A program made the position numbers and the translations under genes. Shown here piece after piece: positions 52,355 through 55,636 of a stretch of DNA of 64,000 nt (positions are counted from its first letter, which is position 1; every line of letters starts with the position of its first letter). Origin of the DNA: Dactylosporangium siamense (lineage in GTDB: Bacteria; Actinomycetota; Actinomycetes; Mycobacteriales; Micromonosporaceae); the NCBI RefSeq assembly GCF_016862795.1, contig NZ_BONQ01000003.1:1-64000 (forward strand), written 5' to 3'. The notes under the pieces were generated by a model. The model ran no database searches. It saw only the letters and a program-made list of their open reading frames with translations, and had not been told where the DNA came from.

Positions 52355-52609
52355 GTGGATCGGGCACAGGGGCTACGCCGTGCGACAGGGCTCACCGGCC
52401 TGCTCGCCGCGTTCGGGGTGGCGGGGTCGCTCGCGGTGGCGACGGTCGCGTACGCCGCCCGCAACGACAACCAGAGCACCGGCGACAACCAGGGCACCAG
52501 CGACGGCATCACAAGCACCGACAGCAGCACCGACAACGGCTCCGCCTGGCCCGAGCTGAGCAGCGACGACGGCGGCGGGCAGCGCGACGCCACATCGGGC
52601 GGGTCCTGA
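52355..52609 (+). CDS. Small membrane protein with near-match flavinylation motif
   Basis: The gene encodes 84 aa from GTG 52355, preceded by GGAGGGAG. A positively charged start is followed by one membrane helix (about 13-34, LTGLLAAFGVAGSLAVATVAY). An extracytoplasmic tail rich in Asp, Asn, Ser and Thr follows. The last residues, DATSGGS, differ by one residue from the D-x2-(S/T)-G-A-(S/T) sequence to which ApbE attaches FMN. Its stop is 1 nt before the apbE start. It could be a small flavinylated electron carrier, which is inference. Confidence 0.75.
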   Translation: MDRAQGLRRATGLTGLLAAFGVAGSLAVATVAYAARNDNQSTGDNQGTSDGITSTDSSTDNGSAWPELSSDDGGGQRDATSGGS

Positions 52610-52610
52610 C

Positions 52611-53522
52611 ATGGCGGCCCTGGAGCACGGTGCCGCGCAGTGGGAGACCTGGAGCACCACCGTCCGGCTCGTCGTCACCGACCCGGCCGCGCTGCCGGAA
52701 GCCGAGGAGCTGGTCCGAGCCGAGCTGGCCGCCGTCGACCTGGCGTGCAGCCGGTTCCGCGACGACAGCGAGCTGCACCACGTCCACCAGACCGCGGGCC
52801 GGCCCGTCGAGGTCAGCGAGCTCCTCGCCGAGCTGGTCGCGGTCGCGCTGCGGGCCGCGCGGGACACCGGCGGCGACGTCGACCCGACCGTGGGCGCGGC
52901 CATCGCCGACCTGGGATACGACCGCGACTTCGCGGAGATCGACGCGCCGGCCGGCAACTCGGGCACCCGGCTCATCGTGTATCCGACCGCGAACTGGCGG
53001 CACGTGCGGCTGCGGGGCCGGCGCCTCACCGTGCCGCCCGGCGTGACCCTCGACCTGGGCGCGACCGCGAAGGCCTGGGCCGCCGACCGCTGCGCCAGGC
53101 TGGTCGCGGCCGCCACCGGCGCCGGCGTCCTGGTCTCTCTCGGCGGCGACATCGCGACCGCCGGCCCGGCCCCCGCCGGCGGCTGGCGGGTGCTGGTGCA
53201 GGACCGGCCCGGCGAGCCGGGCTGCACGGTCCGGCTGCCCGGCGGCGCCGCGCTCGCCTCGTCGAGCACGATCAGCCGCCAGTGGCTCGGCCCGCACGGC
53301 GTGCTGCACCACATCCTCGACCCGCGGACCGGGATGCCGGCGCCACGGGTGTGGCGGACCGTGTCGGTCGCCGCCCGCAGCTGCGTGCACGCCAACACGC
53401 TCAGCACCGCGGCGGTCGTGCGCGGTCGCGCGGCGCACGGATGGCTGGCCCGGCAGGGAGCGCCGGCGCGACTGGTTTCGCAGCGGCGCCAGGTGTACGC
53501 GACCACGGGCTGGCCGTTGTGA
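52611..53522 (+). CDS. apbE: FAD:protein FMN transferase
   Basis: This 303-aa ApbE-family enzyme transfers FMN from FAD to a Thr/Ser of target proteins, using Mg. Motifs are CSRFRDDSELHHVHQTAG (substrate loop), DPTVGAAIADLGYDRDF, VTLDLGATAKAWAADRCARL (the family LGGIAKGYA-like core), VSLGGDIATAG and HHILDPRTGMPA near the C-terminus. No signal peptide is evident, so flavin transfer may be cytoplasmic. It is embedded in the redox operon between the small membrane protein and the ferric-reductase-like protein, whose start overlaps its stop (GTGA). Confidence 0.93.
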   Translation: MAALEHGAAQWETWSTTVRLVVTDPAALPEAEELVRAELAAVDLACSRFRDDSELHHVHQTAGRPVEVSELLAELVAVALRAARDTGGDVDPTVGAAIADLGYDRDFAEIDAPAGNSGTRLIVYPTANWRHVRLRGRRLTVPPGVTLDLGATAKAWAADRCARLVAAATGAGVLVSLGGDIATAGPAPAGGWRVLVQDRPGEPGCTVRLPGGAALASSSTISRQWLGPHGVLHHILDPRTGMPAPRVWRTVSVAARSCVHANTLSTAAVVRGRAAHGWLARQGAPARLVSQRRQVYATTGWPL

Positions 53523-54070
53523 ACGACGCGCTGTGGTACCTCGCGAGGGGCACCGGCGTCACCTCGCTGGTGCTGCTGACCGTGGTGGTCGCGCTCGGGA
53601 TCGCGAACCGGGCCGGCCGGCCGGCGTTCGGGCTGCCGCGGTTCGGGGTGGCGCAGGTGCACCGGGACGCGTCGCTGCTGGCGGTGGGATTCGTGCTGGT
53701 GCACGTGATCAGCCTGTTCTTCGACGTGTACGCGCAGCTGGAGCTCTTCGACCTGATCGTGCCGTTCGGGGCGACGTACCGTCCGATGTGGACGGGTCTC
53801 GGGACCCTCGCCGTGGACCTGCTGATCGCGCTGGTCGGGACGAGCCTGCTGCGGCACCGGCTGGGGTTGCGGGCGTGGCGGGTGACGCACTGGCTGGCGT
53901 ACGCGTGCTGGCCGCTCGCGTTCGCGCACGCGCTCGGCTCCGGCTCCGACGCGGGCGCGTGGTGGCTGCGGACCGTCGCGGGCGCCTGTCTCGTCGCGGT
54001 CGTCGCCGCCGTCACCTGGCGGCTGTCCACCAGCGCCCGCGCCACCGTCCTCAGTGGAGACACCCGATGA
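53519..54070 (+). CDS. Ferric-reductase-like transmembrane protein
   Basis: The protein has 183 aa from GTG 53519, coupled to the apbE stop. Six hydrophobic segments are visible. His residues in GVAQVHRDAS, LLAVGFVLVHVISLFF, WRVTHWLAYACWPLAFAHALGSG are placed like the haem ligands of the ferric reductase/NADPH-oxidase membrane domain. It lacks the FAD and NAD-binding domains of full ferric reductases; the separate NuoF-like protein encoded next probably supplies electrons. It would pass electrons across the membrane to a flavin or external acceptor. Confidence 0.87.
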   Translation: MNDALWYLARGTGVTSLVLLTVVVALGIANRAGRPAFGLPRFGVAQVHRDASLLAVGFVLVHVISLFFDVYAQLELFDLIVPFGATYRPMWTGLGTLAVDLLIALVGTSLLRHRLGLRAWRVTHWLAYACWPLAFAHALGSGSDAGAWWLRTVAGACLVAVVAAVTWRLSTSARATVLSGDTR

Positions 54071-54111
54071 CCGCGGCAGCGGGCCGCACCGTCCTCAGTG
54101 GAGGTTCATGA
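54067..54111 (+). CDS. 14-codon micro-ORF linking ferric reductase and flavoprotein genes
   Basis: ATG 54067 overlaps the TGA of the upstream gene (ATGA), and its own TGA (54109-54111) overlaps the start of the next gene (ATGATG). It would encode MTAAAGRTVLSGGS. It arose by a 44-bp duplication of the junction (CACCGTCCTCAGTGGA at 54043 and 54087), which also duplicated the ribosome site and ATGACCGCGG. It probably serves to hand ribosomes on; the peptide itself may have no role. Confidence 0.5.
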   Translation: MTAAAGRTVLSGGS

Positions 54112-55307
54112 TGACCGCGGTCCTGACCGCCGGGCGGCTGCTCGGCGCCGGCCACCCCGACCTCCGTGGACACGACACCGCGCACGGGCCGCTGCCGCGG
54201 TTGCCGCACGACGTGCTGATCGGGGTCGTGCGGGACGCCGGGCTCACCGGGCACGGCGGCGCCGGGTTCCCGACGCACGTGAAACTGGCCGCGGTGCGCG
54301 GGCACGCCGGCGGGCGCAGGCCACCGGTGGTCGTCGGCAACGGCGCCGAGGGCGAGCCGGGCAGCGCGAAGGACCGCACGCTGCTGGCCCGCGCGCCGCA
54401 CCTGGTGCTCGACGGGCTGCAGCTGGCCGCGGCCGCGGTCGGGGCGGCGAAGGCGCACCTGTACGTGCGGCCGGCGTCGGCCGGGCCACTCGCGCGGGCC
54501 GTGCGGGAGCGGCGGGCGGCGGGGCGGGACCCGGTGCCGGTGGTCGTGCACCAGGCGCAGGAGGCGTTCCTGTCCGGCGAGGAATCCGCGGTGGTGTCCG
54601 TCCTGAGCGGTGGACGCGCCGTGCCGCGCGACAAGCTGCGCCGGGTCACGGAGTCCGGGGTGGGCGGGGCGCCGACGCTGGTGCAGAACGTGGAGACCCT
54701 GGCGCAGCTGGCGCTCGTGGCGCGGCACGGCGCGGACTGGTTCCGGCGGTCCAGGACGTTCCTGGCGACCGTCACCGGCCCGGTCGGGCGGCCCGGGGTG
54801 TACGAGGTGCCGCACGGCGTCGCCCTCACCGCGCTGCTCGCCGCCGCGGGCGGTCCGGTCGCGGCGCCGCGGGCGGTGCTCGTCGGCGGCTTCCACGGCG
54901 CGTGGGTGCCGGCCGCCGCGGTGGACGTGCCGATGAGCCGGGAGGGGCTGGCACCGTACGGGGCGTCGCCCGGCGCCGGGGTCGTCATCCCTCTCGCCGC
55001 CGGGGAGTGCGGCCTCGCCCGGACGGCGCGGATCGTCGGGTACCTCGCCGGGGCGGGCGCGAAGCAGTGCGGGCCGTGCCTGAACGGCCTGCCGCGGCTG
55101 GCGGCGACCATGGCGGCGCTGGCCCGGATGGAGGGCGACCCGTCGCTGCCGGCGGGGGTGGCCCGGCTGGCGGCGCTGGTGCGCGGCCGCGGCGCCTGCG
55201 GCCACCCCGACGGCACGGTCCGCCTCATCCGCAGCGCCATGACGGTGTTCGCCGACGACGTGACCGCCCACCTGCACGGCAGCTGCCTCGATGGAGCCCG
55301 GCCATGA
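54111..55307 (+). CDS. NuoF/RnfC-like NADH-binding flavoprotein
   Basis: The gene encodes 398 aa from ATG 54111 (GTGGAGG six bases upstream; ATG 54108 is an alternative). It resembles the 51-kDa NADH-binding subunit of complex I: glycine-rich GHGGAGFPTHVKL, VVVGNGAEGEPGSAKDR for FMN/NADH, FLSGEESAVVSVL, TLVQNVETLAQLALVARHG and the SLBB-type VGRPGVYEVPHGV. Four cysteines near the C-terminus (ECGLA, KQCGPC, GACGH) can hold a 4Fe-4S cluster. It probably takes electrons from NAD(P)H to the ferredoxin or the membrane reductase of the same operon. Confidence 0.9.
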   Translation: MTAVLTAGRLLGAGHPDLRGHDTAHGPLPRLPHDVLIGVVRDAGLTGHGGAGFPTHVKLAAVRGHAGGRRPPVVVGNGAEGEPGSAKDRTLLARAPHLVLDGLQLAAAAVGAAKAHLYVRPASAGPLARAVRERRAAGRDPVPVVVHQAQEAFLSGEESAVVSVLSGGRAVPRDKLRRVTESGVGGAPTLVQNVETLAQLALVARHGADWFRRSRTFLATVTGPVGRPGVYEVPHGVALTALLAAAGGPVAAPRAVLVGGFHGAWVPAAAVDVPMSREGLAPYGASPGAGVVIPLAAGECGLARTARIVGYLAGAGAKQCGPCLNGLPRLAATMAALARMEGDPSLPAGVARLAALVRGRGACGHPDGTVRLIRSAMTVFADDVTAHLHGSCLDGARP

Positions 55308-55348
55308 ACCGCCCGCACAGCAGCTGCCTCGAAGGAGCCCGGCCATGA
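55304..55348 (+). CDS. Micro-ORF 1 on 41-bp repeat
   Basis: ATG 55304 overlaps the flavoprotein stop (ATGA), with GATGGAG upstream. It encodes MNRPHSSCLEGARP and its TGA overlaps the next ATG. Since the repeat period is 41 bp, each following copy is in the next frame and the chain can only be read by repeated termination and re-initiation. Confidence 0.5.
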   Translation: MNRPHSSCLEGARP

Positions 55349-55389
55349 ACCGCCCGCACAGCAGCTGCCTCGAAGGGACCCGGCCATGA
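55345..55389 (+). CDS. Micro-ORF 2 on 41-bp repeat
   Basis: ATG 55345, with GAAGGAG upstream, encodes MNRPHSSCLEGTRP, ending in a TGA that overlaps ATG 55386. It differs from micro-ORF 1 by one residue. Confidence 0.5.
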   Translation: MNRPHSSCLEGTRP

Positions 55390-55430
55390 ACCGCCCGCAC
55401 GGCACCCGCGTGGAAGGAGCCCGGCCATGA
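55386..55430 (+). CDS. Micro-ORF 3 on 41-bp repeat
   Basis: ATG 55386 has a weakened site (GAAGGGAC). It encodes MNRPHGTRVEGARP, and its TGA overlaps the ferredoxin ATG 55427. This most diverged copy still keeps length, frame and both overlaps. Confidence 0.5.
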   Translation: MNRPHGTRVEGARP

Positions 55431-55636
55431 CCCGGCTGCACGTCGACTGGACCGCCTGTCAGGGGCGGGGGCACTGCACGGAGCTGCTGCCCGAACTGCT
55501 CGCGCCGGACGAGTGGGGGTACCCCCGCAGCACCGACGACACCAAGGAGCCCGCGGTGCCGGTGGCGCTGCTCCCCCATGCCCGGCGGGCCGTCCGGCAC
55601 TGCCCGCGGCTCGCGCTGCACCTGGTGGGGCCGTAG
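55427..55636 (+). CDS. 3Fe-4S ferredoxin
   Basis: This 69-aa small ferredoxin starts at ATG 55427 behind GAAGGAG. Cysteines in the order ACQGRGHC (C-x5-C) and RHCPRLAL (C-P) are those of bacterial single-cluster ferredoxins. The protein starts with the usual LHVDWTAC and has an ELLPELLAPDEWGYP centre. It is the last gene of the redox operon and is probably the soluble electron carrier for the flavoprotein or membrane reductase. The convergent sensor gene ends 1 nt after its stop. Confidence 0.92.
   Translation: MTRLHVDWTACQGRGHCTELLPELLAPDEWGYPRSTDDTKEPAVPVALLPHARRAVRHCPRLALHLVGP

Follow-up and report, generated by a model that had tools for sequence, protein, structure and literature searches.

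The operon at positions 52355-55636 of the Dactylosporangium siamense DNA analyzed here (positions 1 to 64,000 of contig NZ_BONQ01000003.1, a stretch of 64,000 nucleotides that we call the window) probably encodes a compact transmembrane electron-transfer chain, in which a small tail protein would serve as a natural flavin tag and carry flavin mononucleotide (FMN) on its last Ser. An initial annotation, made from the DNA letters alone, had claimed five same-strand genes at this place, and all five are present on the + strand, with families assigned through profile matches. The features of the operon are as follows.

52355-52609, + strand: tail protein, 84 amino acids, GTG start, without a Pfam or NCBIfam match above the curated cut-off
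52586-52606, + strand: codons of the C-terminal motif D-A-T-S-G-G-S, read from the tail protein sequence
52611-53522, + strand: apbE, predicted ApbE-type flavin adenine dinucleotide (FAD):protein FMN transferase (PF02424, E 3.3e-48; PDB 1vrm profile, E 3e-41)
53519-54070, + strand: Ferric_reduct (MsrQ-like) membrane cytochrome, 183 amino acids, with H48, H62, H124 and H137 (PF01794, 3.7e-10)
54067-54111, + strand: 14-codon mini-open reading frame (mini-ORF), joined by ATGA overlaps to the cytochrome gene and the nuoF-like gene (from the sequence)
54108-55307, + strand: nuoF-like flavoprotein with Nuo51 FMN/NADH domain, SLBB and NADH_4Fe-4S, four conserved Cys (PF01512, 3.8e-33; PF10589)
55304-55430, + strand: three chained 14-codon mini-ORFs in a 41-bp tandem repeat of the nuoF/ferredoxin junction (from the sequence)
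55427-55636, + strand: small single-cluster ferredoxin with three invariant Cys (PF13459, 5.5e-12)

The tail protein of the window starts with a basic N-terminus (GLRRATGLT), passes through one hydrophobic segment into a low-complexity tail of Ser, Thr, Asp and Gly, and ends in DATSGGS-COOH, which agrees with the earlier description of an 84-residue product with one helix and that terminus. DATSGGS has Gly for Ala relative to the ApbE target D-x2-[ST]-G-A-[ST] and differs in this from the canonical motif. No Pfam or NCBIfam family, PF04205 (FMN_bind) included, matched the window tail protein at the curated cut-off, and PF04205 was found in none of the five operon products. When 63 tail proteins were scanned at E 0.01, PF04205 was not among the five Pfam families matched; those five (one or two members each) and the seven NCBIfam families matched (one to three members each) were set aside as low-complexity noise, the curated cut-offs having been checked for the window's tail protein only. 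The consensus of 63 tails consists of a basic start, G-x-R-R and T, little that is conserved between, and the end A-x-S-G-G-S.

The tail protein is a poor query, too short and too simple, and found relatives in only 3 of 41 genomes; because a whole-protein search with it finds so few, relatives were collected through apbE, with an alignment of 13 ApbEs from such operons as the query. At E 1e-40, an ApbE of this type is present in 89 of 394 genomes of the class and in 57 of 138 genera. The 80 named loci are the best 80 of 572 relatives, and further stretches were added for matches without a locus. Of 199 loci with an ApbE match, seven with less than 400 nt upstream were excluded and 192 were scored. 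A frame upstream of apbE counted as a tail frame if it had a start codon, a hydrophobic segment close to its N-terminus and a tail of low complexity; the C-terminal motif played no part in this definition. Such a frame lies directly upstream of apbE at 173 of the 192 loci, and at 152 of the 160 that have the cytochrome. Merging five duplicate proteins left 168 unique tails, a set in which only identical proteins were merged, one genome may enter from two sources (e.g., L046/L148, window/L154), and some candidates are possibly wrong frames (e.g., L199, L227 and L243).

The C-terminal end is the best conserved part of these proteins besides the basic N-terminus and the helix. A terminal Ser is found in 149 of the 168 unique tails, against 2240 of the 10,861 internal cuts made in these tails, and an end of the form [ST]-x-[GA]-[ST] in 138 of 168, against 442 of 10,861 cuts; counted on unique strings of the last 12 residues, that end occurs in 134 of 164. 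The exact ApbE core, [ST]GA[ST], falls within the last eight residues of 25 of the 168 tails and at 14 of 11,029 internal positions. Six tails (L039, which ends in DASSGAS, L115, L118, L209, L231 and L234) have the canonical Dxx[ST]GA[ST] at or near the end, and none of the 10,861 internal cuts does.

Could the Gly-Gly-Ser end merely reflect in-frame translation of the ribosome-binding site that serves apbE downstream? The two genes mostly touch or overlap, an apbE start being possible within 20 nt in 163 of 168, and the mini-ORF at 54067-54111 of this very operon ends in SGGS because a GGAGG ribosome-binding site is read in frame. Nevertheless, of the 142 tail genes whose last 15 nt contain no Shine-Dalgarno-like 4-mer, 118 have the motif, as do 20 of the 26 with such a 4-mer. 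The codons vary as well: the terminal Ser uses five codons from both Ser families, and Ala occurs at position -2. The motif is fixed in its position relative to the stop codon while the gap to the apbE model start ranges from -28 to 194, and it is rare at the other C-termini of the same loci (ApbE, 1 of 191; cytochrome, 0 of 173; NuoF, 2 of 142; ferredoxin, 1 of 137). Three of the five tail genes that lie at least 20 nt from any possible apbE start have the motif, a subset too small to weigh. We rejected the ribosome-binding-site reading on the codon and 4-mer counts and give it almost no credence. Judging from these comparisons, selection acts on the tail end as protein sequence and maintains it as a putative ApbE site.

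The position of the tail gene points in the same direction. Controls were taken from 20 stretches at FMN_bind or other apbE genes, in genomes that also carry the tail-type enzyme; ApbE matches were obtained in 15, and L255, L256, L260, L261 and L271 were excluded (none at E 1e-5). An FMN_bind match stands beside apbE at 14 of the 15 control loci (L268 has no FMN_bind in its stretch), and in all 14 of these the frame directly upstream of apbE is a helix-bearing FMN_bind protein, with Dxx[ST]GA[ST] internal in 13. The C-terminal tail motif was found in the upstream frames of none of the 15 control loci. No signal peptide was seen by eye in the control apbE genes, so it is usual in this class for an ApbE without a signal peptide to have a membrane-anchored substrate. 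That the tail protein occupies the place of FMN_bind in a large family is well supported by these comparisons. The initial annotation had proposed that a tail-flavinylated protein replaces the usual FMN-binding domain; the slot and the six canonical tails agree with this, while the motif Asp and the Mg-binding Asp of ApbE depart from it. Its central idea fares better than its motif.

The operon might also be an MsrQ-like system of the ordinary kind, with an FMN_bind protein from another place in the genome as the substrate of its ApbE. This would explain it without any flavin on the tail, and the genome of the window does have three FMN_bind places (L254 to L256). Only L254 of these gave an apbE match, with its own Asp-type ApbE. 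We searched for PF04205 in 65 genomes and for PF02424 in 64 of those, and found that 20 of the 64 have a single PF02424 gene and no PF04205 match; each of the other 44 has an additional ApbE or an FMN_bind match, if not both. All 20 of the single-ApbE genomes have a tail frame upstream of apbE, which in 19 carries the strict motif and in L046 ends in TGSS. These 20 genomes gave no NqrB/RnfD (NQR2/RnfD) and no DUF3570 match, and one sub-cut-off DUF2271 match; Flavodoxin_4 and FMN_red were not searched. Three of the 20 fall short of being at least 90% complete together with at most 5% contaminated. With 20 genomes that have neither an FMN_bind match nor a second ApbE, we regard a substrate of this kind encoded elsewhere as very improbable.

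The enzyme is conserved in its FAD site and altered in its metal site. Alignment of the window ApbE to 13 PDB sequences (best 3e-41) shows an FAD site with its Ser, His, Arg and Lys intact, and the relatives keep these residues almost without exception. The Ser-16-His-28-X spacing equals that of Ser241-His257-Asp285 in Vibrio cholerae and of Ser257-His273-Asp301 in FmnB (residue numbers from PMC12052999), and the position of the Mg-binding Asp is N262, an Asn, in the window ApbE. Asp stands there in 15 of 15 control ApbEs, and a changed Mg-binding residue is, as far as alignments can tell, a signature of the ApbEs paired with tail proteins. We considered compensation of the lost Asp by the Asp of the GG[ND] motif and rejected it, as that column is Asp in all 15 control ApbEs too. 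A tree was made of 74 ApbEs (35 sampled from the Asn type, all 32 of the Glu type and, of the 15 Asp controls, the 7 of sufficient length). The Asn type forms a monophyletic group in it. The split that best recovers the Glu type includes the Asp controls too, so we make no claim of two independent origins. The window ApbE lacks the signal peptide or lipobox of an extracytosolic ApbE, its first start leaving no room for one, and a hydrophobic ApbE N-terminus was found in 3 of 168 relatives.

Several of our results weigh against flavinylation of the tail. The altered Mg-binding residue is the strongest point against simple FMN transfer as read from sequence: across 195 relatives, the position is Asn in all 163 that score at least 200 bits and Glu in all 32 below, with Asp in none (bit scores against an ApbE alignment that itself held only Asn), and in FmnB the Asp binds both Mg ions, and replacement of the Mg ligands by Ala left the enzyme with greatly reduced activity or none (PMC8906456). 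The motif is degenerate as well. Asp stands at position -7 in only 18 of the 168 tails, fewer than have His (56) or Gln (25) there, and position -2 is Gly in 122 and Ala in 23, so that Gly commonly stands in place of the Ala of the canonical target; moreover, ApbE is reported to prefer Thr to Ser (PMC12052999). In the group with Glu-type ApbE, 11 of 31 tails are strictly motif-ended, or 22 of 31 when up to four extra residues are allowed. No tail frame was found directly upstream of apbE at 19 of the 192 loci; five of these (L123, L187, L200, L202 and L045) have a tail-like frame elsewhere in the stretch, which is not evidence for the motif because the search for them required it. At five loci (L086, L087, L096, L180 and L188), the small ferredoxin likewise comes after an ApbE of this type, and neither a cytochrome nor a NuoF or tail gene was found in these stretches. 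The initial annotation expected D-x2-S-G-(G/A)-S to be conserved and would have counted homologues lacking the Asp or the Ser against its proposal; the Ser has held up and the Asp has not. Loss of the Asp is a weak objection, since changing the motif Asp to Ala is reported to have minor effects only, and ApbE accepts Ser (PMC12052999).

These points lend themselves to two other explanations. The tail protein may carry no flavin and be an anchor or assembly factor, its C-terminus a docking handle for ApbE or the cytochrome, which would sit well with the lost Mg-binding Asp of this type of ApbE and with the usual absence of the motif Asp. We consider this unlikely, as the conserved end fits the core of an ApbE target, exact [ST]GA[ST] versions included, the protein takes the FMN_bind slot, and the 20 single-ApbE genomes offer no other above-cut-off substrate among the four families searched. 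Alternatively, the C-terminal Ser may indeed be modified by an ApbE lineage with changed chemistry, such as transfer of a different flavin or nucleotide, or a changed role for the metal. The presence of Asn or Glu in all 195 relatives, set against the Asp kept in the 15 other ApbEs, speaks for such a change; the FAD-site Ser, His, Arg and Lys, kept almost throughout, speak against it, and Asn or Glu is still able to bind Mg. A change of chemistry seems quite unlikely to us. We hold to the tail protein as a flavin-tagged member of an electron-transfer chain as the probable reading.

In the mechanism that we propose, the membrane-anchored, disordered tail protein would act as a natural "flavin tag", with the C-terminal [ST]-x-[GA]-Ser as the ApbE site and its final Ser as the residue that bears FMN. 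As the ApbE lacks a signal peptide, the flavin would have to be attached before the tail protein is exported. In 166 of 168 tail proteins, the segment before the helix carries a higher net charge than the segment after it, a bias that puts the N-terminus inside and the tail outside. An Arg-Arg pair precedes the helix or lies at it in 115 of 168 tails, not universally and counted without a control, and might fit export of the tail protein by the twin-arginine translocation (Tat) pathway. The partners keep their cofactor ligands: the cytochrome has four His that are invariant in 129 of 129 aligned relatives, the number expected for two hemes b; each of four Cys in the NuoF-like protein is kept in at least 101 of 105; and three Cys of the ferredoxin are kept in 100 of 100 aligned relatives. 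The NuoF-like protein is likely the entry point for NAD(P)H. From what is known of these families, electrons would pass from NAD(P)H to the NuoF-like protein, the ferredoxin and the hemes of the cytochrome, and from there to the FMN on the outside tether and an extracytoplasmic acceptor, of which ferric iron may be one. We looked for a link to iron and rejected it as too weak to name the acceptor: among the 80 named loci, VIT-type genes were found at 1, DUF2231 at 3, and a sensor kinase with a regulator at 24.

The loci come, by their record titles, from many actinobacterial genera and from metagenome-assembled genomes labeled Chloroflexi, Dormibacterota and Acidobacteria, labels that may be wrong. 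Nine plasmid records carry such an apbE, and a tail frame precedes it in all five plasmids examined, ending in SAGS and SAGS (Rhodococcus, twice), TKGS (Cnuibacter), TRAS (Arthrobacter) and TAAS (Gordonia); the tail frame of the first Rhodococcus plasmid is annotated as a hypothetical protein. The plasmid copies L274 and L276 lie near VIT-family, DUF2231 and two-component genes, and that of Cnuibacter near metal-efflux genes, possibly a hint of a function with metal or iron. A same-genus homologue of the tail protein (L034, 10793-11041, - strand) has a second, internal DDASGGS besides its C-terminal HATTGGS, and the apbE of that locus has a repeat-rich insertion. The genome of the window also contains, at L052, a second such NuoF-like gene; the ferredoxin is part of its frame, a cytochrome-like frame lies upstream, and the stretch gave no apbE.

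The junctions of the operon are more elaborate than the 1 to 4 bp first described for them. That description is correct for two of the four, the tail/apbE junction (1 bp) and the apbE/cytochrome junction (a 4-bp overlap); 37 bp lie between cytochrome and nuoF (nuoF ATG at 54108) and 119 bp between nuoF and ferredoxin. These gaps are occupied by one and three 14-codon mini-ORFs, respectively, chained through ATGA overlaps. At the cytochrome/nuoF junction, a 44-bp-spaced duplication (54043-54120) gives rise to the mini-ORF at 54067-54111, and a 41-bp tandem repeat (55268-55431) gives rise to the three ATGA-joined mini-ORFs and would represent a duplicated translational-coupling junction.

If the proposed mechanism is correct, the tail protein is a previously unrecognized kind of electron-carrying protein in many actinomycetes, and a disordered tether with a natural flavin tag at its C-terminus is a new way to build an electron carrier; the ApbE substrates in the literature compared here are folded domains or their extensions. 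We lean, somewhat less firmly, toward a broader proposal, in which widespread fold-less ApbE substrates, membrane-tethered low-complexity tails with FMN on the C-terminal Ser, would be the targets of ApbEs whose metal site has been remodeled (Asn or Glu for Asp). As flexible redox arms, such tails would swing between a membrane cytochrome and acceptors on the outside, and they would explain some of the "orphan" apbE genomes. In the account of Meheust et al. (2021, PMC8238504), 4% of genomes (670) remained as orphan apbE genomes and were taken to suggest unidentified substrates, and a first screen excluded genes without a predicted signal or lipid site. The 20 of 64 genomes that pair a single ApbE and no FMN_bind match with an upstream tail protein bear on this question. 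We found no earlier description of the tail protein among the matches listed in the open-licence PubMed Central (PMC) literature.

Among known systems, the closest in gene content are the MsrQ-like flavinylation clusters of Actinobacteria, which share with the window an apbE, a PF01794 cytochrome with heme-ligand His, and a NuoF-like donor (PF01512, PF10589). As described by Meheust et al., such clusters typically include a gene for an FMN-binding domain, and the NuoF-like PF10589 protein is found in 31 of 1797; the window, in contrast, has in the slot of the FMN-binding domain a tail protein without a recognized domain. Like the FMN_bind (PF04205) substrates, the tail protein is membrane-anchored, encoded directly before a signal-less apbE, and equipped with an ApbE-type motif. 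Unlike them, it has no FMN_bind domain, its motif stands at the extreme C-terminus of a low-complexity tail, and the motif Asp is mostly absent. A parallel to the proposed attachment site is the engineered Flavin-tag (PMC12052999), for which a seven-residue minimal ApbE motif suffices and works best at the N- or C-terminus; a short terminal motif is common to both, in the tail protein as the putative site of FMN attachment, although the Flavin-tag is engineered and the window has a natural tail with a degenerate motif. A flavinylation motif on an unstructured C-terminal extension is also described for FMN_red proteins (PMC11334425). Those proteins, however, have a folded flavin-binding domain and occur mainly in Firmicutes, whereas the tail protein has no folded domain.

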